A stretch of DNA of 47,272 bases, taken from assembly GCA_021813445.1 (NCBI GenBank), contig JAKAKP010000049.1:1-47272 (forward strand), in the 5' to 3' direction. Made by a program: the position numbers and the translations under genes. Each line of letters opens with the position of its first letter. The first letter of the stretch is position 1. Origin of the DNA: Deltaproteobacteria bacterium (GTDB lineage: Bacteria; Desulfobacterota; Desulfobaccia; Desulfobaccales; 0-14-0-80-60-11). The notes under the pieces were generated by a model. That model made no database searches. It was not told the origin of the DNA and worked only from the letters and a program-made list of their open reading frames with translations. Shown piece after piece: positions 19,061-29,397 of the stretch.

Positions 19061-19090
19061 AGTTCAAGGTTCAAAGTTCAAAGTTCAAGG
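19061..19090. repeat. Heptamer array, GTTCAAR type (left member)
   Basis: About four 7-base units of GTTCAAG/GTTCAAA. The reverse complement is the TGAACYT unit found at 19273-19314 and 23158-23220, so this is the inverted partner of the array on the other side of the spacer. Confidence 0.75.
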
Positions 19091-19235: not shown

Positions 19236-19272
19236 GTTTATGAAAAATTCAAGAGATTCAGTGTCTTAACTA

Positions 19273-19314
19273 TGAACTTTGAACCCTGAACCCTGAACCC
19301 TGAACCTTGAACTG
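19273..19314. repeat. Heptamer array, TGAACCC type (right member)
   Basis: Six units in exact register: TGAACTT, TGAACCC three times, TGAACCT, TGAACTG. It is inverted relative to the array at 19061-19090 and ends 56 bases before tetR. Confidence 0.85.
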
Positions 19315-19330: not shown

Positions 19331-19371
19331 TTGACAGACAGGGTAGTTATTTGATATGACCAACTGGTCAT
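19331..19371 (+). promoter_or_regulatory. tetR promoter with palindromic operator over the start codon
   Basis: TTGACA (19331-19336) is a consensus -35, with an AT-rich TTGATATG-type -10 at about 17 bases. The 16-bp palindrome ATGACC-AACT-GGTCAT (19356-19371) overlaps the -10 region and the tetR ATG. The same palindrome with a different centre lies before mqnE. This is the classic layout for an autoregulating TetR repressor. Confidence 0.7.
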
Positions 19372-20020
19372 GTCGCAGCAGCCGGCCCGCACCACCTTCT
19401 CCCATCTGCCTGCGGATAAGCAGGAAAGGGTCCTCAATGCGGCCCTCAATGAGTTTGCGGACCAGGGCTACCATCAGGCCTCCCTCAACCGCCTGGTGGC
19501 CCGGGCGGGCATCGCCAAGGGCTCTCTCTATCAGTATTTTCCTAATAAAGAAGGCATCTTCCGCCACATCTTCCAACTGGCCCTGGGCCGGGTGCGCCAG
19601 ACCCTGGTGGCGGTCAAAGACAGCACCGAAAATGAGAACCTGTTCATCCGCTTGGAGAAATCCCTCAAGGCCGGGGTGCGCTTCCTCCAGGAACACCCCC
19701 GGATCTACAGCCTTTATCTCAAGATTCAATTTGACCGGCAAGTGCCTTTCCGCCAGGAGTTCCTGGCCGCGGTGCGCCGCCACGCCGGGGAATACTTCGG
19801 CTCCCTGATCAGCCGGGCCCGGGCCCGGGGCGAGCTGCGGCCGGGAATTTCAGAGCCTGCAGCCTTATTTCTCCTGGACGCGGTCTTTGACCGTTTTCTC
19901 CAGGCCGTGGCCGTCCCGTACCTGGACGTCACTTTCAACCTCCACCAGGCCCCGGAAGAGATCGTCCAGCGGCGCATCCGGGAACTCATCGATCTTCTCC
20001 GGGAGGGCTTGGCGGCCTAG
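19370..20020 (+). CDS. TetR family regulator, candidate regulator of the menaquinone cluster
   Basis: A 216-aa regulator with an N-terminal TetR helix-turn-helix: RVLNAALNEFADQGYHQASL, then RLVARAGIAKGSLYQYFPNK. The C-terminal part is a helical ligand-binding domain without recognisable specificity. The gene directly precedes mqnE. The 16-bp dyad ATGACC-N4-GGTCAT at its own start codon and again upstream of mqnE suggests that it represses both. The ligand is unknown; a quinone or pathway intermediate is possible, but so is an acyl-CoA, because FadR-type TetR proteins use similar TGACC/GGTCA dyads. Confidence 0.9.
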   Translation: MSQQPARTTFSHLPADKQERVLNAALNEFADQGYHQASLNRLVARAGIAKGSLYQYFPNKEGIFRHIFQLALGRVRQTLVAVKDSTENENLFIRLEKSLKAGVRFLQEHPRIYSLYLKIQFDRQVPFRQEFLAAVRRHAGEYFGSLISRARARGELRPGISEPAALFLLDAVFDRFLQAVAVPYLDVTFNLHQAPEEIVQRRIRELIDLLREGLAA

Positions 20021-20022
20021 GT

Positions 20023-20053
20023 ACCGCCCAGGCTTTCCAGCCTGGGCGGTTTT
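20023..20053 (+). terminator. Hairpin with short T-run after tetR
   Basis: ACCGCCCAGGCT and AGCCTGGGCGGT form a perfect 12-bp stem around TTCC, beginning 3 bases after the tetR stop and followed by TTT. It probably ends tetR transcription. It also belongs to the AGGCT-x4-AGCCT repeat family. Confidence 0.65.
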
Positions 20054-20067
20054 GCGGAAAAAATCAG

Positions 20068-20110
20068 CCTCACGCAAAGACGCAAAGGCGCAAAGAAAGA
20101 CGCAAAAATA
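20068..20110. repeat. Dispersed 42-bp octamer-type repeat (CGCAAAGA), copy 1
   Basis: CCTCACGCAAAGACGCAAAG followed by GCGCAAAGAAAGACGCAAAA. The core has an 8-base period. A near-identical copy lies at 33221-33263 and an inverted copy at 46416-46456. Confidence 0.8.
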
Positions 20111-20173
20111 GAAAAAATTTGCGGGTGAGTTCACGACTCAAGGATGAATGATCCATTTTTTTTAGATGTTAAC

Positions 20174-20199
20174 ATGACCGCATGGTCATAAAATGGAGC
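20174..20199 (+). promoter_or_regulatory. Candidate TetR operator and -10 upstream of mqnE
   Basis: The palindrome ATGACC-GCAT-GGTCAT (20174-20189) is the second copy of the dyad at the tetR start. It abuts a TAAAAT (20189-20194) that can serve as a -10 box. GGAG at 20196-20199 is the ribosome-binding site for the ATG at 20207. No strong -35 is visible. Confidence 0.7.
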
Positions 20200-20206
20200 G
20201 AAAATA

Positions 20207-21304
20207 ATGACATCTCTCAGATTTGAAGACCAGGCGCTGCTGCCCATTCATGAGAAAGTTCTGGCAGGCCAAAGGCTTGAGGCCGCGGACGGCCTGACCC
20301 TCTTTCAGAGTCCGGACCTCCTGGGGGTGGGTTATCTGGCCAACCTGGTGCGGCAGCGCCTCCATGGCCGCAAGGCTTTCTATATCTATAACCAGCATAT
20401 CAATTACTCCAACATCTGCGTCAATGGCTGCAAATTCTGCGCTTTCGGCAGAAAAGCGGGGGACGCGGGCGCCTATGAGATGTCCCTGGACGAAATCTTC
20501 GCCAAGGTGGAAGCCAGGCTCTCCGAGCCCATCACCGAGATCCATATCGTCGGCGGCTGCCACCCCGATCTGCCCTTTTCCTTCTATCTGGAGATGCTCC
20601 GGGGTATCAAGGCCCGGCGGCCTCAGGTTCATCTCCAGGCCTTCACTGCGGTGGAAATCGCCCACCTGGCGGAACTAAATCGCACTACCGTGGAGGAAAC
20701 CTTGCGGGCCTTGCGGGACGCGGGCCTGGGGTCGCTCCCCGGGGGCGGCGCCGAGGTCTTCAGTCCCCGGGTGCGCCAGGACTTGTGTCCCCAAAAGCTC
20801 TCCCCCGAGGGCTGGCTCTCCGTGGCCCAGACCGCACATCGCCTGGGTATGAACACCAATGCCACCATGCTCTATGGCCATATGGAAGGCCTGGAGGAGC
20901 GGGTGGACCATATGCTGAAGCTCCGGGCCGCGCAGGATGAAACCGGGGGCTTTCTGGCCTTCATTCCCCTGGCCTTCCACCCCCAGAACACGGCCCTGGA
21001 ACATCTCCAGGGACCCAGCGCCATTGATGACTTAAAAACTTTGGCGGTCTCCCGTCTCATGCTGGACAATCTGCCCCATATCAAGGCCTTCTGGATCATG
21101 CTGGGACCCAAGATGGCCCAGCTCTCGCTGTGTTTCGGCGTGGACGACGTGGACGGCACGGTCATGGAGGAGCGCATCACCCACATGGCCGGGGCCCAGA
21201 CCCCCCAGGGCCTGACCCGGACTCAGCTGGAAGGCCTGATCCGGGAAGCGGGCTGTGTGCCGCTGGAGCGGGATACGATCTATCGGGTTGTTAGTAACCA
21301 GTAA
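20207..21304 (+). CDS. mqnE: Aminodeoxyfutalosine synthase (radical SAM)
   Basis: MqnE joins 3-[(1-carboxyvinyl)oxy]benzoate, the MqnA product, to an adenosyl radical to make 6-amino-6-deoxyfutalosine. The radical-SAM cluster ligands are CVNGCKFC (Cys 71, 75, 78). EIHIVGGCHPDLPFSFYLEM and LQAFTAVEI are typical of MqnE rather than MqnC, as is the ending FGVDDVDGTVMEERI. 365 aa is normal. It is the first menaquinone gene and has its own operator-like palindrome. Confidence 0.95.
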   Translation: MTSLRFEDQALLPIHEKVLAGQRLEAADGLTLFQSPDLLGVGYLANLVRQRLHGRKAFYIYNQHINYSNICVNGCKFCAFGRKAGDAGAYEMSLDEIFAKVEARLSEPITEIHIVGGCHPDLPFSFYLEMLRGIKARRPQVHLQAFTAVEIAHLAELNRTTVEETLRALRDAGLGSLPGGGAEVFSPRVRQDLCPQKLSPEGWLSVAQTAHRLGMNTNATMLYGHMEGLEERVDHMLKLRAAQDETGGFLAFIPLAFHPQNTALEHLQGPSAIDDLKTLAVSRLMLDNLPHIKAFWIMLGPKMAQLSLCFGVDDVDGTVMEERITHMAGAQTPQGLTRTQLEGLIREAGCVPLERDTIYRVVSNQ

Positions 21305-21385: not shown

Positions 21386-21772
21386 GTGCCTGTTACCATT
21401 CGTCTATTGGTCATTGCCTTTGTCGCACTTATATTGCCTCAGGCTCTTGGCCTTGTGGGGTTCTTTTGGACAAAGCACCGAGGAACACTTTGCAAACTTT
21501 CGACTCTTTTCATTCCTCCTTTGGTTTTTTTCAGCAGCGCTTATCTCTTTTGGGACCTGTCAGCACAAACCATCCAGGACTCAGGGAACTATGTGTGCGG
21601 CGCTTTTGGAGCAGCCGCGTTTTTCTCCACGATTTATGGAACGCTAATGCACCTGATCGTAGGAGTTATCATATTTTCGATTTTAACTTTTATCTGGAAG
21701 AGAAAGGATCAACGCCTCAAACAGAGCATTGACCAGATATCTAAGTTGGGGATCGCTAATAAAATAAATTAG
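21386..21772 (+). CDS. Small predicted membrane protein between mqnE and mqnC
   Basis: A 128-aa frame with a GTG start and no recognised family. Three or four hydrophobic segments are visible (about 5-27, 40-57, 72-105), and a basic tail (WKRKDQRLK) follows the last one. Base composition is less GC-rich than the neighbouring genes. A competing overlapping frame (21376-21732) has a less orderly sequence. Its place inside the menaquinone cluster hints at a related role, but this could also be a recent insertion or not a gene at all. Confidence 0.5.
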   Translation: MPVTIRLLVIAFVALILPQALGLVGFFWTKHRGTLCKLSTLFIPPLVFFSSAYLFWDLSAQTIQDSGNYVCGAFGAAAFFSTIYGTLMHLIVGVIIFSILTFIWKRKDQRLKQSIDQISKLGIANKIN

Positions 21773-21808
21773 TTGGCACGCAAATTGGCGAGGCATTTTA
21801 AGGAAAGG

Positions 21809-22843
21809 ATGATACTCAAGCAATTTGAGGATAAACGTCTGAATTGGGAAGAAGCCCAGGGCCTCTGGGACCTGGACCTGCTCACTTTAGGGCACTGTGC
21901 CGACCAGGTGCGCCGCCGTCTCCATCCCGGACCCCGGGTCACCTATGTGGTGGACCGCAATATTAATTACACCAATATCTGTACTTCCGGCTGCCGCTTT
22001 TGCGCCTTTTTCCGGGAACCGGGGTCGCCGGAAGGCTACGTTCTGGATGACGCCACCCTGGCCCAGAAGCTTGAGGAGCTTAAAGATTACGGCGGCAGCG
22101 GCGTGCTCCTCCAGGGCGGCCTGAACCCGGACTTGCCCTTGGCCTATTATGAGCACCTGGTGCGGCAGATCAGGGATTGCGGTCTCGGGCTCCACGGCTT
22201 TTCGCCGCCGGAGATCGCCTTTCTGGCCCAGCGCTTTGGCCTCAGCTTAAAGGAAGTCTTGACCCGGCTCATGGAGGCCGGCCTTAGTTCCATCCCCGGC
22301 GGCGGCGCCGAGATCCTGGCGGACCGGGTGCGGGGCCAAATCTCCCCCCGCAAGTGCGACAGCGCCCGGTGGCTGGAGGTCATGGCCGCGGCCCATGAGC
22401 TGGGGCTCAAGACCAGCGCCACCATGATGTTCGGCCATTTGGAGACCCGGGCCGAGCGGTTGGAGCATCTCCTTAAAATCCGGGACCTCCAGGACCGCAC
22501 CCAGGGCTTCATCTCTTTCATTCCCTGGACTTTTCAGCCCGGCGGCACTGCCTTGGGGGGCGAGCACCTGGGCGCGGTGGAGTACCTGCGCACCCTGGCC
22601 GTCTCCCGCCTGGTGCTGGACAACGTGCCCCATCTCCAGGTCTCCTGGGTGACCCAGGGCCCGAAGATCGCCCAGGTGGCCCTGAAATTCGGGGCGGACG
22701 ACTTCGGCTCCACCATGCTGGAGGAAAACGTGGTGGCCGCCACCGGCGTGGGCTTCCGCCTCTCCCGGGAGGAAATCGAGACCCTGGTGCGCCAGGCGGG
22801 CTACGAACCCCGGGTCCGGGACCACCGGTATAAGTTGTTGTGA
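21809..22843 (+). CDS. mqnC: Cyclic dehypoxanthinylfutalosine synthase (radical SAM)
   Basis: MqnC cyclises dehypoxanthine futalosine. The radical-SAM motif is CTSGCRFC (Cys 58, 62, 65). The MqnC-specific segments GVLLQGGLNPDLPLAYYE and KFGADDFGSTMLEENVVAA are present, so it is not a second MqnE. 344 aa from the ATG at 21809, which has AAGGA just upstream. A TTG at 21773 would add 12 residues. The stop codon is the first unit of a heptamer array. Confidence 0.95.
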   Translation: MILKQFEDKRLNWEEAQGLWDLDLLTLGHCADQVRRRLHPGPRVTYVVDRNINYTNICTSGCRFCAFFREPGSPEGYVLDDATLAQKLEELKDYGGSGVLLQGGLNPDLPLAYYEHLVRQIRDCGLGLHGFSPPEIAFLAQRFGLSLKEVLTRLMEAGLSSIPGGGAEILADRVRGQISPRKCDSARWLEVMAAAHELGLKTSATMMFGHLETRAERLEHLLKIRDLQDRTQGFISFIPWTFQPGGTALGGEHLGAVEYLRTLAVSRLVLDNVPHLQVSWVTQGPKIAQVALKFGADDFGSTMLEENVVAATGVGFRLSREEIETLVRQAGYEPRVRDHRYKLL

Positions 22844-22933: not shown

Positions 22934-23050
22934 GGTTCCCAAGCTCCTGCTTGGGAACCCTATTGGAGAAAAAGCTCCTGCTTTTTCTCACTCGATATCG
23001 CAGCACTGGTCAGGCGAAGCAGCTGGCGTTCCCAAGCTCTGCTTGGGAAC
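22934..23050. repeat. Two REP hairpins of the GTTCCCAAGC/GCTTGGGAAC family
   Basis: GGTTCCCAAGC-TCCT-GCTTGGGAACC at 22934-22959 and GTTCCCAAGC-TCT-GCTTGGGAAC at 23028-23050, with a broken copy between them. Further copies occur at 35649-35673 and 35685-35701. Confidence 0.8.
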
Positions 23051-23116
23051 CAGTAGAAAAAAAGGCTGAAGCTTGGTAGCAGAGGGGGCGTAGCGGCGGG
23101 CAGCCCCGCCCGCCTC

Positions 23117-23138
23117 GCACAGGCTGGAAAGCCTGTGC
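23117..23138. repeat. REP-like hairpin (AGGCT-GGAA-AGCCT family)
   Basis: GCACAGGCT and AGCCTGTGC form a 9-bp stem around GGAA. Compared with 3294-3317, base pairs in the stem differ on both sides so that pairing is kept. Confidence 0.7.
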
Positions 23139-23157
23139 TACCGCTCTTTTTCAACTT

Positions 23158-23220
23158 TGAACTTTGAACTTTGAACTTTGAACCTTGAACTTTGAACCTT
23201 GAACCTTGAACTTTGAACTG
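23158..23220. repeat. Heptamer array, TGAACYT type, nine units
   Basis: Nine consecutive units in register (TGAACTT or TGAACCT, the last TGAACTG). It ends 9 bases before the ATG of the phosphorylase gene and occupies the place where a ribosome-binding site would be expected. The unit is the same as in 19273-19314. Confidence 0.9.
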
Positions 23221-23229
23221 AAAAAAGCC

Positions 23230-24096
23230 ATGCATCCCAAAATCGCGTTAATAGCCCGGGTGGGCGCGCATAAGACCTTCGAAGCCCTGGGGCTGAAGCC
23301 GGAGAAGACCGAGGTCTTTCCCACGCCCTACGGCGACAGCCGCCCCATCCATTTCTTCCGGCACCAGGGGCTGGAATTCGCGCTCCTTTCCCGCCACGGG
23401 GAGGCGGGTTACGACCTCTCCGCACCTTTTCTTAACCCCCGGGCCAATCTTTATGCCCTAAAATCCTTGGGCATACAAAAAATCCTGGCCTGGGTGGCCC
23501 CCGGGTCTTTGCGGGAGGAAATGGCCCCAGGCGATTTGGTGGTGCCCCACGACATCCTGGACGAAGGCCGGGGCGGGCCCCACACCTTTTTCCCCAATGT
23601 GGGCTGGGGCTTTATCCGCCATAACCCGGTCTTTTGCCCGGAGCTGCGAAGCGCCTTGATCTCCACCCTGCAAGGCGTTCCTTTTAAGGTACATTCTCAG
23701 GGTGTCTACGTGGCCACCATCGGCCCCAGGCTGGAGACCGCCGCGGAGATCAGGAAATTGCGCCTCCTGGGTGGGGATCTGGTGGGCCAGACCCTGGTGC
23801 CCGAAGTCTTCCTGGCCCGGGAGCTGGAATTCTGTTACGCCGCCCTCACCTATGTGGTGAATTACGCGGAGGGTCTCGTGGACCGGCCCTACCAGCCGGG
23901 CGTCTTGTTTGAAGGTCTGGCCACCCCGGAGGAAATGGCCCAAGTCGCCGCGGTGGAGCAAGCATTCCCCAATCTGCTGACAAAAGTTCTCACGGCCCTG
24001 GCGGCTGCGCCCCGGGCCTGCCCCTGCCCCCGCCTGCTGGAGCGTTACCGTCTGCGGGGGGATATTGGCGAGGATTGGCGCACATGGGTGAGATGA
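23230..24096 (+). CDS. MTAP/PNP family nucleoside phosphorylase, probably acting on futalosine
   Basis: A 288-aa member of the MTAP/purine nucleoside phosphorylase family in the MqnB position of the pathway. Family features: SRHG (Arg55-His56), PRAN (70-73), PGSLREEMAPGD, GPRLET (165-170) and TLVPEVFLARELE. Where adenine-specific MTAP has the base-binding TDYD, this protein has VNYA, with Asn211 replacing the Asp. Asn at this place is typical of enzymes for 6-oxopurines. That fits futalosine (a hypoxanthine nucleoside), the product of the neighbouring MqnX. The ATG at 23230 is preferred to a TTG inside the repeat. The stop overlaps the mqnX start (ATGA). Confidence 0.85.
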   Translation: MHPKIALIARVGAHKTFEALGLKPEKTEVFPTPYGDSRPIHFFRHQGLEFALLSRHGEAGYDLSAPFLNPRANLYALKSLGIQKILAWVAPGSLREEMAPGDLVVPHDILDEGRGGPHTFFPNVGWGFIRHNPVFCPELRSALISTLQGVPFKVHSQGVYVATIGPRLETAAEIRKLRLLGGDLVGQTLVPEVFLARELEFCYAALTYVVNYAEGLVDRPYQPGVLFEGLATPEEMAQVAAVEQAFPNLLTKVLTALAAAPRACPCPRLLERYRLRGDIGEDWRTWVR

Positions 24097-25304
24097 CCGC
24101 CCACCTCAGCCGCTGGGTGCTGCCGGTGAGCGCGCCGCCCATCCGGGACGGCGCGGTCCTGGTGGACGAGGGCCAGATCCGGGCGGTGGGGCCTGCCTCT
24201 GAAGTCCTCAAGGGCTTTCAAGGTAGCCTGCGCGATCACGGCACCGGGGCCATTCTCCCGGGCCTGGTCAATTGCCACACGCACCTGGAGTTTTCGGCCC
24301 TGGCCGGAAAGATCATGCCCCAGTTGCGCTGGGAGGACTGGCTGGAAATGAACCTGGCCGCGTCCGCCTCCCTGAGCCCCCGGGATAAAGAAGCGGGCAT
24401 CCTCCGGGGTCTGGCTGATCTGCACCGCTACGGCACCGCGCTGGTGGGCGACATCAGCAACACCGGGGATAGCCTGGCCCATCTCGCCGCTTCCCCTTTG
24501 GAGTACCGGCTTTTTTATGAATGCCTGGGTTTTAACCTCCTGGACCTGGGGCCGCTGGAAGAGGCCTTTCCCTTCTTTGCCACTTCCCAGGCCCGGGACG
24601 ACCTCAATATCTCCGCCGCGGCCCATGCGCCCTATTCCGTCTCGCCCGCACTGTTCCGGGCGGTGAGCCAATGGAATTCATGCCGCCGCCGCCCCCAAGC
24701 AGTGCATCTGGGTGAGTCGGCCGCGGAACTGGATTTCCTGGCCCGGGGGGATGGCTTTTTTAAGGACCTGCTGCAAACCCGGGGGCGCTGGGTCCCTGAT
24801 TTTACGCCGCCGGGGATGACGCCCGCGGCCTACCTGCAATCTCTGGGCTTTTTAGGCCCTGACACCCTGGCGGTGCACGGGACCCGGCTCGATGCCGGTG
24901 ACTGCCGGGTACTGGCCCGCAGCCGCACCTGGGTGATTCTCTGCCCCCGGGCTAACACCTTTACCGGCGGGGGCTCGCCGCCAGTGGCGGAGTTGCTGCA
25001 AGCCGGCGTCTCCCTGGCCCTGGGCACCGACTCCCTGGCTGGCAACTACGACTTGAATCTCTTCGGAGAGATGCTGTGGCTTTACCGTCACTATCCCCAA
25101 TACCCCGGAGACCTCTGGCTCTACCTGGGAACCCTTCAGGGAGCCCAGGCCTTGCACCGGCATCAGGACCTGGGCTCCCTGGAGCCCGGGAAGAAAGCGG
25201 CTTTGGGTTTTATCCCCCTGTCCGGGAGGCAAGACTTCTGGGAGGAGCTTTATCTGAACGGCGCGGCTGGGGAATGGCAGTGGCTTGATGGGTTTTCGCT
25301 TTGA
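24093..25304 (+). CDS. mqnX: Aminodeoxyfutalosine deaminase (amidohydrolase family)
   Basis: An amidohydrolase of the SAH/MTA deaminase group. Metal and catalytic residues are visible: CHTH (His62, His64), HLGES (His205, Glu208), VHGTRL (His261) and GTDSLA (Asp312). In this cluster the likely reaction is 6-amino-6-deoxyfutalosine to futalosine. Its ATG overlaps the upstream stop as ATGA, indicating coupling; an in-frame ATG at 24084 is an alternative. 403 aa. Confidence 0.87.
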   Translation: MTAHLSRWVLPVSAPPIRDGAVLVDEGQIRAVGPASEVLKGFQGSLRDHGTGAILPGLVNCHTHLEFSALAGKIMPQLRWEDWLEMNLAASASLSPRDKEAGILRGLADLHRYGTALVGDISNTGDSLAHLAASPLEYRLFYECLGFNLLDLGPLEEAFPFFATSQARDDLNISAAAHAPYSVSPALFRAVSQWNSCRRRPQAVHLGESAAELDFLARGDGFFKDLLQTRGRWVPDFTPPGMTPAAYLQSLGFLGPDTLAVHGTRLDAGDCRVLARSRTWVILCPRANTFTGGGSPPVAELLQAGVSLALGTDSLAGNYDLNLFGEMLWLYRHYPQYPGDLWLYLGTLQGAQALHRHQDLGSLEPGKKAALGFIPLSGRQDFWEELYLNGAAGEWQWLDGFSL

Positions 25305-25403: not shown

Positions 25404-25528
25404 TAAAGACAACTGCCGGAATAAGCTATTCCGGATGAATAATGGTGAAATGATTTTAGGGGGGATGGCCGAAGCTGGTGTGACGGCCGTTTTATATGAC
25501 CATCTCCCAAAATTGATCGAGGTTGGCT

Positions 25529-26353
25529 ATGACCGGGAAAATTCGTTTCGGCAGGATTCAGTACCTCAATGTGCTGCCCATTTATTATGCCCTGGAAAAC
25601 CTCTTTAGCGAGAATGGCTTTGAGTTGGTGTCCGGGACGCCCGCGGAGCTGAACGCACGCATGCGGCAGAACCAGGTGGACGCGGGTTCCATCTCGGCCA
25701 TGGAGTATGGCAGCCGTCCGCAGGATTACCTGCTGTTGCCTAACCTGTCCATCAGTTCCCGGGGGCCGGTCCGGAGTGTATTGCTGTGCAGCCGGGTCCC
25801 GGCCGCCGCCTTGGATGGCCGGCCGGTGCTGCTCAGCGCCCATTCCGCCAGCGGGGCCGCGCTTCTCAAGGTCTTGATGACTGAACTCTACGGCGCCAAG
25901 CCGATTTACCGGCAGGGCCCGGTAAGCGCCGCCGAGGGCACCGAATATGACGGCGTCTTGGCCATCGGCGATGAAGCGCTGCAACTGCAGGCCCAGGGAA
26001 CCTGGCCCCATATTTTGGACCTGGGCGCGGCCTGGCAGGAATTGAGCAGCCTCCCCTTTGTCTTCGGGGTGTGGGCGGTGCGCCGGGATTATGCCGCGGC
26101 CTGGCCGGAGAAGACCGCGGCCATGCACCGGCTCCTGCTTCGCTCCCGGGATTGGGGGCTCGGGGCCCTGCCGGAGTTGAGTCGGTTGGCCGCGGCCAGC
26201 CTTAGACGCCCGGTCTCCCAGCTTTTGTCCTACTTTCAGCAACTGGATTATTCCCTGGGTCCGGAGCATGAAAAGGGGCTGCTTACTTTCTTTACCCATC
26301 TGCATAACCTGGGAGAACTTGCAGAAATACCGGAACTGGCTTATTTTCAATAA
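25529..26353 (+). CDS. mqnA: Chorismate dehydratase MqnA
   Basis: MqnA makes 3-[(1-carboxyvinyl)oxy]benzoate from chorismate, the first futalosine-pathway step. It has a periplasmic-binding-protein-like fold. The start GKIRFGRIQYLNVLPIYYAL, then DAGSISAMEYG and LPFVFGVWAVRRDY, are characteristic. 274 aa. The ATG at 25529 is used; a TTG lies two codons upstream. A lone ATGACC half-site at about 25496 is the only hint of the TetR operator here. It is followed by the UbiD-type gene after 31 bases. Confidence 0.93.
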   Translation: MTGKIRFGRIQYLNVLPIYYALENLFSENGFELVSGTPAELNARMRQNQVDAGSISAMEYGSRPQDYLLLPNLSISSRGPVRSVLLCSRVPAAALDGRPVLLSAHSASGAALLKVLMTELYGAKPIYRQGPVSAAEGTEYDGVLAIGDEALQLQAQGTWPHILDLGAAWQELSSLPFVFGVWAVRRDYAAAWPEKTAAMHRLLLRSRDWGLGALPELSRLAAASLRRPVSQLLSYFQQLDYSLGPEHEKGLLTFFTHLHNLGELAEIPELAYFQ

Positions 26354-26384
26354 CAAGCTGACAGCTATCCTCGAAGAGGTTTCC

Positions 26385-27830
26385 ATGGGATATCAAAATC
26401 TGCAGGAGTTCATCCGCCGCTTGGAACGATCTGGGGAATTGGTGCGCATCAAAGAACCGGTGAGTCCCTATCTGGAGATCACGGAAATTACCGACCGGGT
26501 ATGTAAAGCCGGGGGTCCGGCCCTGCTTTTTGAGAACGTACCGGGCTATGACCTGCCGGTATTGATGAACGCCTTCGGTTCCATGACGCGCATGTGCCTC
26601 TCCCTGGAAGTGGACTCCCTGGATGATATTGCCGCGGAGCTGCTCTCCTTTATGGAGGCCGAAGCCAATACCTTGATGAAGAAGCTGCAGCTCCTCCCCA
26701 AGCTGGCGCGGCTGGGCCGGATGTTCCCCAAAACCGTGTCCAAGGCCCCGTGCCAGGAGGTGGTATTTACCGGCAACCAGGTGGACCTCAGGAGATTGCC
26801 GGTCCTCACCTGCTGGCCCGAGGACGGCGGGCCTTTCATCACTTTGCCCGCGGTTTTCACCCACCACCCGGAGACCGGCAAGCGCAACGTGGGCATGTAC
26901 CGCCTCCAGGTCTATGACACCTGCACCACCGGCATGCACTGGCACCGGCACAAAGGCGGGGCCCAGCACTACCGGGTGGCGGAGGCCAGGGGGGATATCC
27001 TCCCCGCAGCCGTGGCCATCGGCCCCGACCCCGCAGTTACCTATGCGGCCACCGCGCCCTTGCCGGAAGACATCGATGAAATCGTCTTTGCCGGGTTTTT
27101 GCGGGGAGAGCCGGTGGAGATGGTCAACTGCCTCACCCAGCCGGTCATGGTGCCCGCAGAAAGCCAGATCGTCTTGGAAGGATACGTGGCCCCCGGAGAA
27201 CGCCGCCGGGAAGGCCCCTTCGGTGATCATACCGGGTATTATTCCCTGGCCGATGATTATCCGGTGTTCCATGTCACCGCACTGACGCAGCGCCGGGAGG
27301 CCGTGTACCCGGCCACCATCGTCGGGCGGCCCCCCATGGAGGACTGCTTTATCGCCAAGGCCACGGAGCGCATCTTCTTACCCTTGATGAAAAAGACCCT
27401 GCCGGAAATCGTGGACCTCAACCTGCCGGTGGAAGGGGTCTTTCATAACCTGGCCTTTGTGAGCATCGACAAACGCTACCCGGGCCATGCCCGCAAGGTG
27501 ATGCACGCCCTCTGGGGTCTGGGACAGATGATGTTCACCAAGATGATCGTCGTCTTTGACCGGGAGGTGGACGTCCAGGACCTGTCCCAGGTGCTTTGGC
27601 GCCTGGGCAATAATGTGGACCCCAAGCGGGACGTGGTTTTCGCCGAGGGGCCGGTGGACGTGCTGGACCATGCCTCTCCCTTGCCCCATTACGGTTCCAA
27701 GATGGGCATCGACGCCACCCGCAAGTGGCCGGAGGAGGGTTTTACCCGGGAATGGCCCCCGGTCATCGATATGGACCCGGAAGTCAAACGCAAGGTGGAT
27801 GAACTGTGGCCGAAGCTGGGACTGGTATGA
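26385..27830 (+). CDS. UbiD family prenylated-FMN-dependent decarboxylase
   Basis: UbiD enzymes decarboxylate aromatic or unsaturated acids with prenylated FMN. In futalosine clusters the homologue (called MqnL by some) is proposed to remove the carboxylate of the naphthoate. Visible are GMYRLQVYDTCTTGMHWHRH, IGPDPAVTYAATAPLPEDID, and the catalytic-region EGYVAPGERRREGPFGDHTG. The start MGYQNLQEFIRRLE is family-like. 481 aa from the ATG at 26385. The next gene overlaps it as ATGA and encodes the matching cofactor synthase. Confidence 0.92.
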   Translation: MGYQNLQEFIRRLERSGELVRIKEPVSPYLEITEITDRVCKAGGPALLFENVPGYDLPVLMNAFGSMTRMCLSLEVDSLDDIAAELLSFMEAEANTLMKKLQLLPKLARLGRMFPKTVSKAPCQEVVFTGNQVDLRRLPVLTCWPEDGGPFITLPAVFTHHPETGKRNVGMYRLQVYDTCTTGMHWHRHKGGAQHYRVAEARGDILPAAVAIGPDPAVTYAATAPLPEDIDEIVFAGFLRGEPVEMVNCLTQPVMVPAESQIVLEGYVAPGERRREGPFGDHTGYYSLADDYPVFHVTALTQRREAVYPATIVGRPPMEDCFIAKATERIFLPLMKKTLPEIVDLNLPVEGVFHNLAFVSIDKRYPGHARKVMHALWGLGQMMFTKMIVVFDREVDVQDLSQVLWRLGNNVDPKRDVVFAEGPVDVLDHASPLPHYGSKMGIDATRKWPEEGFTREWPPVIDMDPEVKRKVDELWPKLGLV

Positions 27831-28387
27831 ACCGTTACGTGGTGGCCATCACCGGGGCTTCCGGCATGATCTACGCCCGGGAGTTGCTAAATTATTTCGC
27901 CACCCGGCCGGATCTGGAATTGCACGCGGTCATCTCCTCTGCCGGAGAGCAAGTGCTCTCCCTGGAATTGGGGCTGACCCCGCAAGCCCTGGCCCCTCGG
28001 GCCATCTGGCATAAAGTGGACGACTTCACCTCGCCCCTGGCCAGCGGCTCTTTCCGGGCCCGGGCCATGGTGGTCATTCCCTGCACCATGGGCTCTCTGG
28101 GGGCCATTGCCCAGGGGGTGGGCCGCCACTTGATCCACCGGGCCGGGGAGGTCTTTTTGAAGGAAAAGCGGCCCCTGATCCTGGTGGTCCGGGAAACCCC
28201 GCTGAGCCTCATCCATTTGCAAAACCTGGCCCGGGCCGCGACCGCAGGGGCCACCATCTTCCCTGCCTGTCCCGGTTTCTACCACCGCCCCCAGACCCTG
28301 GAGGAACTGGCCCGGCAACTGGTGGGCCGCATCCTGGACCACCTGGGCCTGGAGCATCATTTAAGCCCGCGTTGGGGAGAAAAATGA
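27827..28387 (+). CDS. ubiX: UbiX family flavin prenyltransferase
   Basis: UbiX prenylates FMN to make the UbiD cofactor. The 186-aa protein shows VVAITGASGMIYAREL at the N-terminus, VVIPCTMGSLGAIAQG, and LILVVRETPLSLIHLQNL near the C-terminal half, all canonical. It overlaps the UbiD-type gene by 4 bases, which supports joint function. Some authors use the name MqnM for this role in futalosine clusters. Confidence 0.96.
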   Translation: MNRYVVAITGASGMIYARELLNYFATRPDLELHAVISSAGEQVLSLELGLTPQALAPRAIWHKVDDFTSPLASGSFRARAMVVIPCTMGSLGAIAQGVGRHLIHRAGEVFLKEKRPLILVVRETPLSLIHLQNLARAATAGATIFPACPGFYHRPQTLEELARQLVGRILDHLGLEHHLSPRWGEK

Positions 28388-28536: not shown

Positions 28537-29397
28537 ATGCAGCAATTTTTGCGAAATATTGGGGAAATACTGGAGATGATCAAGATCGGCCACAGCGTCC
28601 TGGCGCTGCCCTTTGCCTTCATGGGGGCCATGCTCGCGGCCCGGGGCTGGCCGGACTGGAGAACCTCTTTCTTCATTCTGCTGGCCATGGTGGCGGCCCG
28701 CAGTGCGGCCATGGCCTTCAACCGCCTGGTAGATGCCCCCTTCGATGCCGCCAATCCCCGGACCGCCAGCCGCTCTCTACCTCAAGGGCGGCTGAAAATG
28801 AAGGCGGTGCTGGTGTTTGTAGTGCTGAGCAGCCTGATTTTTATCGGGGCCGCAAGCCAGCTCAATCGGGTTTGCCTGGCCCTCTCTCCCCTGGCCCTGG
28901 CGGTGATTTTGGGTTACTCCCTCACCAAGAGGTTCACTGCCGCCACCCATTTTATTCTGGGCCTGGGCTTGGGTCTGGCCCCTGTGGGGGGGTGGCTGGC
29001 GGTCAGGGGCGACTTGAGCCTGCAGGTTCTGGTGCTGGCGCTGTCCGTGCTTTTCTGGGTAGCGGGTTTTGATATTCTTTACGCCCTCCAGGACGAGGAG
29101 TTTGACCGGCAGACAGGTCTCCATTCCCTGCCGGTCCAGTTTGGCTCCCTTCAGGCCCGGCGCCTGGCCGCCGGGTGCCACCTGGCTGCGGCTGGCGGTT
29201 TTTTGCTCACCGGCTACCTGGCAGGACTGCAAGGTATCTATACCCTGGCGGCACTTTTGGGGGCTATACTCCTGGCCGGCCAGCACTTGGTTCTTTTCAT
29301 GCGTGGCCCCCTCCGTCTGCCCCCGGCTTTTTTTACCCTTAATGGTCTGGTGGGTATTGGTTTGAGCCTGGCTACCTGGCTCAGTCTGATTTCCTAA
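28537..29397 (+). CDS. UbiA family prenyltransferase (menaquinone, MqnP-type)
   Basis: An integral-membrane prenyltransferase, most likely attaching the polyprenyl chain to the naphthoquinone precursor (MqnP role). The first Asp-rich motif is NRLVDAPFDAANPRTASR and the second is YALQDEEFDRQTGLHSLP. Between them are about eight or nine membrane segments. 286 aa is normal. The assignment to menaquinone rather than heme or ubiquinone rests on its place after mqnA-ubiD-ubiX. Confidence 0.92.
   Translation: MQQFLRNIGEILEMIKIGHSVLALPFAFMGAMLAARGWPDWRTSFFILLAMVAARSAAMAFNRLVDAPFDAANPRTASRSLPQGRLKMKAVLVFVVLSSLIFIGAASQLNRVCLALSPLALAVILGYSLTKRFTAATHFILGLGLGLAPVGGWLAVRGDLSLQVLVLALSVLFWVAGFDILYALQDEEFDRQTGLHSLPVQFGSLQARRLAAGCHLAAAGGFLLTGYLAGLQGIYTLAALLGAILLAGQHLVLFMRGPLRLPPAFFTLNGLVGIGLSLATWLSLIS

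Follow-up and report, generated by a model that had tools for sequence, protein, structure and literature searches.

TetR-family autorepressors of the TetR, AcrR and NemR type carry an N-terminal helix-turn-helix (HTH) and an all-helical ligand domain, and their dyad operator overlaps their own promoter and a neighbouring target. The NemR operator is TAGACC-N4-GGTCTA. The locus described here has the same layout: a TetR-family gene, for which the name mqnR is proposed, and two dyads whose GACC-N4-GGTC core resembles that of the NemR operator. No dedicated transcriptional regulator of the futalosine (Mqn) route, which supplies menaquinone as the quinone of many anaerobic respirers, was found in the open-access literature. 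The original prediction was likewise aware of no TetR regulator dedicated to this pathway, and none was found among 5.39 million open-access papers; most subscription papers and the RegPrecise database lay outside the search. As a gene name, MqnR gave only unrelated matches in the open-access literature. The RegPrecise 3.0 paper (PMC3840689) and a survey of Proteobacteria regulons (PMC5343134) mention neither menaquinone nor futalosine.

The regulator, its two dyads and the neighbouring genes

The window (the whole stretch of DNA analysed, 47,272 nucleotides) contains the features collected in Table 1. The gene identities first proposed, a TetR regulator with MqnE as its neighbour, were confirmed by family profiles, and the TetR_N helix-turn-helix matched PF00440 with 59.8 bits (cut-off 24, E 2.2e-16). 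AlphaFold predicts a TetR fold with confidence (pLDDT 91.8, ten helices), including the all-helical ligand-binding/dimerisation domain of the family. All top PDB matches to the model were TetR proteins, the nearest solved ones being 3NRG, TM1030, RutR and FadR proteins. None of the named NCBIfam TetR equivalogs (ScbR, MtrR, FadR, RutR, AcrR, BetI and others) reached its cut-off; the best was ScbR, with 54.9 bits against 150. No cysteine was found in the translation, hence no redox-active one, and a NemR-like thiol sensor was therefore excluded for this protein. A palindromic operator at the regulator's own promoter and at a target, as is usual in the family, is present by sequence conservation only (no binding assay).

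Table 1. Positions of the regulator, operators, promoter elements and menaquinone genes in the window, and of transporter clusters in other genomes
Feature	Position	Strand	Evidence or remark
TTGACA, -35 of tetR promoter	19331..19336	+	sequence; ortholog comparison
TGaTATGAC, putative extended -10 of tetR promoter, 18 bp from -35, overlapped by operator 1	19352..19360	+	sequence, alignment with relatives; inference
Operator 1, ATGACC-AACT-GGTCAT	19356..19371	.	tetR promoter and start codon; kept at tetR promoter in 60/79 orthologs
tetR (proposed name mqnR), 216 aa TetR-family regulator	19370..20020	+	PF00440; AlphaFold model
T-tract (T8), ends 10 bp before operator 2	20156..20163	+	putative promoter element
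TAACAT, probable -10 of mqnE promoter, overlaps operator 2	20170..20175	+	base profile of -5 to -2 at 35 sites; inference
Operator 2, ATGACC-GCAT-GGTCAT	20174..20189	.	before mqnE; relatives have same position
mqnE, aminofutalosine synthase	20207..21304	+	TIGR03700 511.9 bits, cut-off 434.55
mqnC, cyclic dehypoxanthinyl futalosine synthase	21773..22843	+	TIGR03699 474 bits, cut-off 428.1
Purine nucleoside / methylthioadenosine phosphorylase-like	23221..24096	+	PF01048 E 5e-30; best NCBIfam MTAP, below cut-off
mqnX-like aminofutalosine deaminase family amidohydrolase	24075..25304	+	PF01979; best NCBIfam aminofutalosine deaminase family, below cut-off
mqnA-type menaquinone biosynthesis protein	25523..26353	+	PF02621 E 3.8e-66
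mqnL, UbiD-type menaquinone decarboxylase	26370..27830	+	TIGR03701 656.5 bits, cut-off 495.9
mqnM, UbiX-type flavin prenyltransferase	27806..28387	+	TIGR00421 188.7 bits, cut-off 108.9
mqnP, UbiA-type prenyltransferase	28537..29397	+	PF01040 E 2.5e-54; TIGR01475 278.9 bits, cut-off 180.8
Transporter clusters (other genomes)	L121 5664-10439; L165 3959-8725; L125 (minus), L170 (minus); L162, L171, L272-L277, L281	as marked	

Operator 1 (ATGACCAACTGGTCAT) runs into tetR, its last two bases being the first two of the ATG (19370-19372). Operator 2 (ATGACCGCATGGTCAT) is separated by 17 bases (20190-20206) from the mqnE ATG at 20207. The arms are the same and the difference is confined to the 4-base centre, all as first described. 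Genome-wide sites were taken from pattern searches. Exact ATGACC-N4-GGTCAT gave 2 matches in the 4,175,610-base genome, and both are the operators of this locus. Sites with one mismatch numbered 23, of which 22 lie within ORFs; there is thus no hint of a wider regulon in the 4.18 Mb genome, and a function of imperfect matches cannot be scored. A dyad common and scattered in the genome, named beforehand as grounds for refutation, was therefore not met with. When the refined pattern RTGACCRNNYGGTCAY was searched with up to one mismatch, the window yielded just operators 1 and 2 (shuffling expectation 0.08). Two sites in one window could by themselves be fortuitous, i.e. chance palindromes in a conserved neighbourhood without regulatory meaning; their uniqueness in the genome speaks against this, as do the comparative data below.

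The futalosine pathway is marked by MqnE, MqnC and MqnL, which all exceed their curated cut-offs (TIGR03700, TIGR03699 and TIGR03701). The nucleoside-cleaving step is likely that of the phosphorylase-like protein (23221-24096). This MTAP-like protein takes the place of futalosine hydrolase, similar genes occur in L123 and L134, and its reaction may be the phosphorolytic cleavage of futalosine or aminofutalosine. MqnD was not found in the window genome (97% complete), where a search with PF02621, a family that we take to cover MqnA and MqnD, returned the mqnA-like protein alone (25523-26353). The final step to dihydroxynaphthoate is consequently without an assigned gene in this genome. Between mqnE and mqnC (21386-21772) lies a hydrophobic ORF of 128 aa without a Pfam or NCBIfam match. 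Short tandem-like intergenic repeats (GTTCAAA..., CCTGAAC...) were seen upstream of tetR at 19068-19090 and 19270-19310; similar runs occur near 22960-23235 and upstream of tetR in L014.

Conservation of regulator and dyad in cis and in trans

Orthology was assigned by profile score and a quick tree; many of the genomes are MAGs, and f8, f16 and the like are working family labels. In the order of the window genome, a tetR ortholog was found in 26 of 29 genomes (window genome included). Nearly all of these have the dyad at the tetR start, and often before mqnE too; the arms stay constant and the centre differs. Fixed arms around a varying 4-base centre are the pattern of a protein-binding dyad and not of simple relatedness. 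Across the phylum, a strong ortholog (E 1e-48 or better) was present in 77 of 395 sampled Desulfobacterota genomes, and weaker paralogs were also detected. The persistence of the tetR-mqnE adjacency and of the dyad in relatives, on which the original prediction could have failed, was observed through the order and in many other families of the phylum. Among the matches listed, those outside the phylum were at HTH level only, and the closest named genomes were MAGs labelled Desulfobacca, Desulfobaccales, Syntrophales and Syntrophobacterales.

The orthologs are tied to menaquinone genes. Of 79 ortholog loci, 75 lie at most 1.6 kb from one, three others run into a contig edge, and a single one is unlinked. 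No such link was seen for any of eight paralogs, and the menaquinone-linked TetR clade is separate from the paralogs in the tree (support 0.90). Perfect RTGACC-N4-GGTCAY was found at the tetR promoter of 60 of the 79 orthologs, compared with 2 of 2150 control windows of equal size from the same loci. Position 7 is a purine and position 10 a pyrimidine at all 60 of these sites; at mqn sites (n=42) the figures are 40 and 42. The operator is therefore better written RTGACC-R-NN-Y-GGTCAY. The control count and the fixed arms with divergent centres, together with the dyad's shift to mqnE promoters that are not linked to tetR (see below), already contradict chance, which can be dismissed with near certainty.

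Presence of the ortholog tracks that of mqnE/mqnC (scored at E below 1e-100), which were found in 69 of 77 genomes with the ortholog versus 151 of 318 without it (Fisher p 2e-12). Of the eight ortholog genomes without mqnE/mqnC, four have tetR-ABC-menG-menA and three tetR-mqnL-mqnP; in the eighth, a MAG, tetR lies at the edge of a contig. The ortholog is absent from about two in three of the genomes that carry mqnE/mqnC (151/220), so this regulator is one solution among several. Four arrangements were recognised: (i) tetR-mqnE-mqnC-mqnX-mqnA, the most common; (ii) tetR-mqnL-mqnP followed by an ABC transporter; (iii) tetR-mqnB-mqnD, with mqnB a futalosine hydrolase over the TIGR03664 cut-off; and (iv) tetR-ABC transporter-menG-menA. 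The dyad is at the tetR promoter only in most families outside the order and, within it, at six loci (L025, L028, L031, L032, L034 and L036); the mqn genes there would be controlled through the tetR-led transcript. At one locus (L161 4998-6434) the TetR ortholog is fused in frame to MqnB in a single reading frame of 479 aa (TIGR03664 over cut-off, residues 230-468). It may be a genuine fusion, or a stop codon may have been lost in this one assembly.

In arrangement (iii), tetR stands apart from mqnE and its own promoter is without a dyad, which provided an independent test. The refined pattern matched 20 sites genome-wide across nine genomes of family f16, and 17 of them are upstream of mqnE, most of them paired at a distance of 43-57 bp. 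Four genomes outside f16 (G312, G184, G348 and G208) have their sole match upstream of mqnE (4/4). A dyad upstream of an unlinked mqnE ties the site to the pathway and not merely to the neighbourhood of tetR. Overall, no perfect dyad stands at the promoter of tetR itself in 19 of the 79 orthologs. In 10 of these genomes one lies upstream of mqnE, 4 of the same 19 have near-matches or an mqnE site, and in G047, G084, G328, G331 and G399 no perfect site at a menaquinone gene was found. A concentration of dyads at menaquinone genes, put forward at the outset as a test, was thus obtained also where tetR is not beside mqnE. The f16 pairs stand about 110-180 bp upstream of mqnE (L224-L231) and suggest two dimers or a loop. 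In one genome (G014), a third dyad, GTGACCACTCGGTCAT, is located near the mqnC 5' end (L241 2770-2785), besides those of tetR and mqnE.

The dyad might instead be the site of another palindrome-binding regulator, with tetR merely carried in the menaquinone operon. Several TetR proteins use dyads with GACC/GGTC arms, and there is no direct binding evidence for this one. Set against this, the presence of the dyad follows that of the TetR subfamily across families, it is kept at tetR's own promoter even in clusters that share tetR alone, and the paralogs are without it. We consider a different regulator very improbable, and the TetR protein itself very probably binds the 16-base palindrome.

Promoter elements and mode of control

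In 49 of 59 orthologs, a TTGACA element (at least 5 of 6 bases) precedes the tetR dyad, compared with 8.8% in shuffles. The -10 is so near the ATG that a leaderless or near-leaderless tetR mRNA is predicted in this genus. No TTGACA is evident at mqn sites. There, a run of T5 or longer ends 9-10 bp before the dyad at 23 of 35 sites, compared with 3.5% in shuffles and 10 of 59 tetR sites. This tract is usually followed by G and was seen at mqn target sites across several families, e.g. upstream of mqnE in L225-L232. It resembles TTTTTTTG, the -16 element of Campylobacter promoters (PMC3824568). A weak TAAnAT-like -10 that reaches into the left edge of the dyad is conserved at mqn sites. The TAAAAT box reported beside operator 2 does lie just after the dyad; relatives do not conserve it, and it was rejected as the mqnE -10 and is probably not the promoter. 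A strict sigma-70 consensus scan of the region reported no promoter (the tetR -10 has C as its last base), so the promoter calls depend on cross-species alignment.

The dyad overlaps the -10 region, and repression is inferred for this reason. In the proposed mechanism, an MqnR homodimer would bind the 16-bp operator at two places, one covering the -10 and start of tetR itself and the other the -10 of the mqnE promoter, the presumed driver of the mqnE-led cluster. Bound MqnR would keep RNA polymerase off both promoters and block initiation. A signal molecule from late in the pathway would either release MqnR or strengthen its binding.

According to a second explanation, the TetR protein is an activator of the mqn genes or a repressor of its own gene alone, and the second dyad is mainly a roadblock to tetR-derived transcription. 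It would fit the T-tract 9-10 bp before the dyad and the lack of an evident TTGACA at mqn sites: tetR and mqnE are co-directional, and a stalled polymerase could release at the tract. Yet the same spacing between T-tract and dyad is present in f16 genomes, in which mqnE does not follow tetR. A roadblock at the tract, though possible, is therefore less likely. The likeness of the tract to a known promoter element also makes it simpler to assume that mqnE has a promoter of its own which is blocked at the -10. Activation or self-repression alone was accordingly judged unlikely, though less so than a different regulator at the dyad.

The original reading, that the TetR protein and the shared operator control tetR and the mqnE cluster, is thus supported by the uniqueness of the dyads, their conservation and the trans test. 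These properties, and the link of the operators to menaquinone genes, both beside tetR and away from it, are established at the level of sequence; binding of the dyads by MqnR and repression as its effect are inferred, with no binding or expression data. On this basis we are highly confident that MqnR serves as a self-limiting repressor dedicated to menaquinone biosynthesis and acts through operators at the tetR and mqnE promoters. The effector is inferred to be a naphthoate or quinone from late in the pathway. Neither mqnE nor mqnC is present in genomes with arrangements (ii) and (iv), which would make no futalosine by the known route, so a late product common to all four arrangements is more likely; in particular, the same regulator and operator occur in menA-menG-plus-transporter genomes without futalosine-forming enzymes. 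Futalosine was judged an unlikely effector, since genomes that have neither mqnE nor mqnC still keep the regulator.

Transporter clusters and comparison with known regulators

An ABC transporter (SBP-ATPase-permease) is clustered with late menaquinone genes (mqnL-mqnP or menG-menA), mostly in genomes without mqnE/mqnC and menD. The substrate-binding proteins of arrangements (ii) and (iv) form one family, in which identity to the L165 protein ranges from 31 to 95%. In 23 of 395 genomes there is a strong member (E below 1e-88). Only 2 of these 23 have mqnE/mqnC, versus 218 of the 372 others (p 3e-6). In one of the two (G235), the transporter sits behind a full tetR-mqnE-led cluster, so it is not confined to scavengers. 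No menD over cut-off was found in any of the 23 transporter genomes, and no menB over cut-off in those of them that were tested. Where flanks could be read, the transporter is beside late menaquinone genes: mqnL-mqnP in f8 and f13, menG and/or menA in f40, f54 and f56, and mqnP-mqnM-menG-mqnL in G181. The contig of G108 stops too soon to read the flank. Among the transporter families, TetR and the dyad occur only in f8, f40 and f56.

The transporter is predicted to import 1,4-dihydroxy-6-naphthoate or 1,4-dihydroxy-2-naphthoate; both substrate and direction are inferred. That the transporter genomes belong to menaquinone auxotrophs is an inference from missing genes, and some of these genomes are MAGs. 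The literature leaves open whether soluble menaquinone precursors are carried between microbes by transporters, and by which ones (PMC4746308). MqnR and its operator bear on this question, as they point to transporter clusters in genomes without early pathway genes. A single TetR sensor of the naphthoate/naphthoquinone pool might set menaquinone supply in Desulfobacterota, repressing futalosine synthesis in producers and, in scavengers, dihydroxynaphthoate uptake by the dedicated SBP-ATPase-permease importer together with the late genes (mqnL-mqnP or menG-menA). This is proposed tentatively, as quite possible but somewhat short of probable.

MqnR belongs to the known TetR family, and its regulon is believed to be undescribed. 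It differs from autorepressors of the TetR, AcrR and NemR type in its targets, which are genes of menaquinone synthesis or precursor uptake, and in having no NCBIfam equivalog over cut-off. The best PDB match by profile (E 1.5e-38) and also by fold (29% identity, TM 0.73 to the model) is 3NRG (Caur_2714) of Chloroflexus aurantiacus, a solved and uncharacterised protein from another phylum. FadR-type fatty acid regulators (Bacillus, Sulfolobus) and TM1030 are the next-best fold matches. The FadR-type proteins differ in that they control fatty acid metabolism, and the window protein, with 48.3 of 200 bits, is far under the FadR equivalog cut-off. Regulator, operator and regulon together give a clear binding prediction, and the logic is that of RegPrecise-type regulons from comparative genomics: a conserved regulator, its motif and its target pathway.
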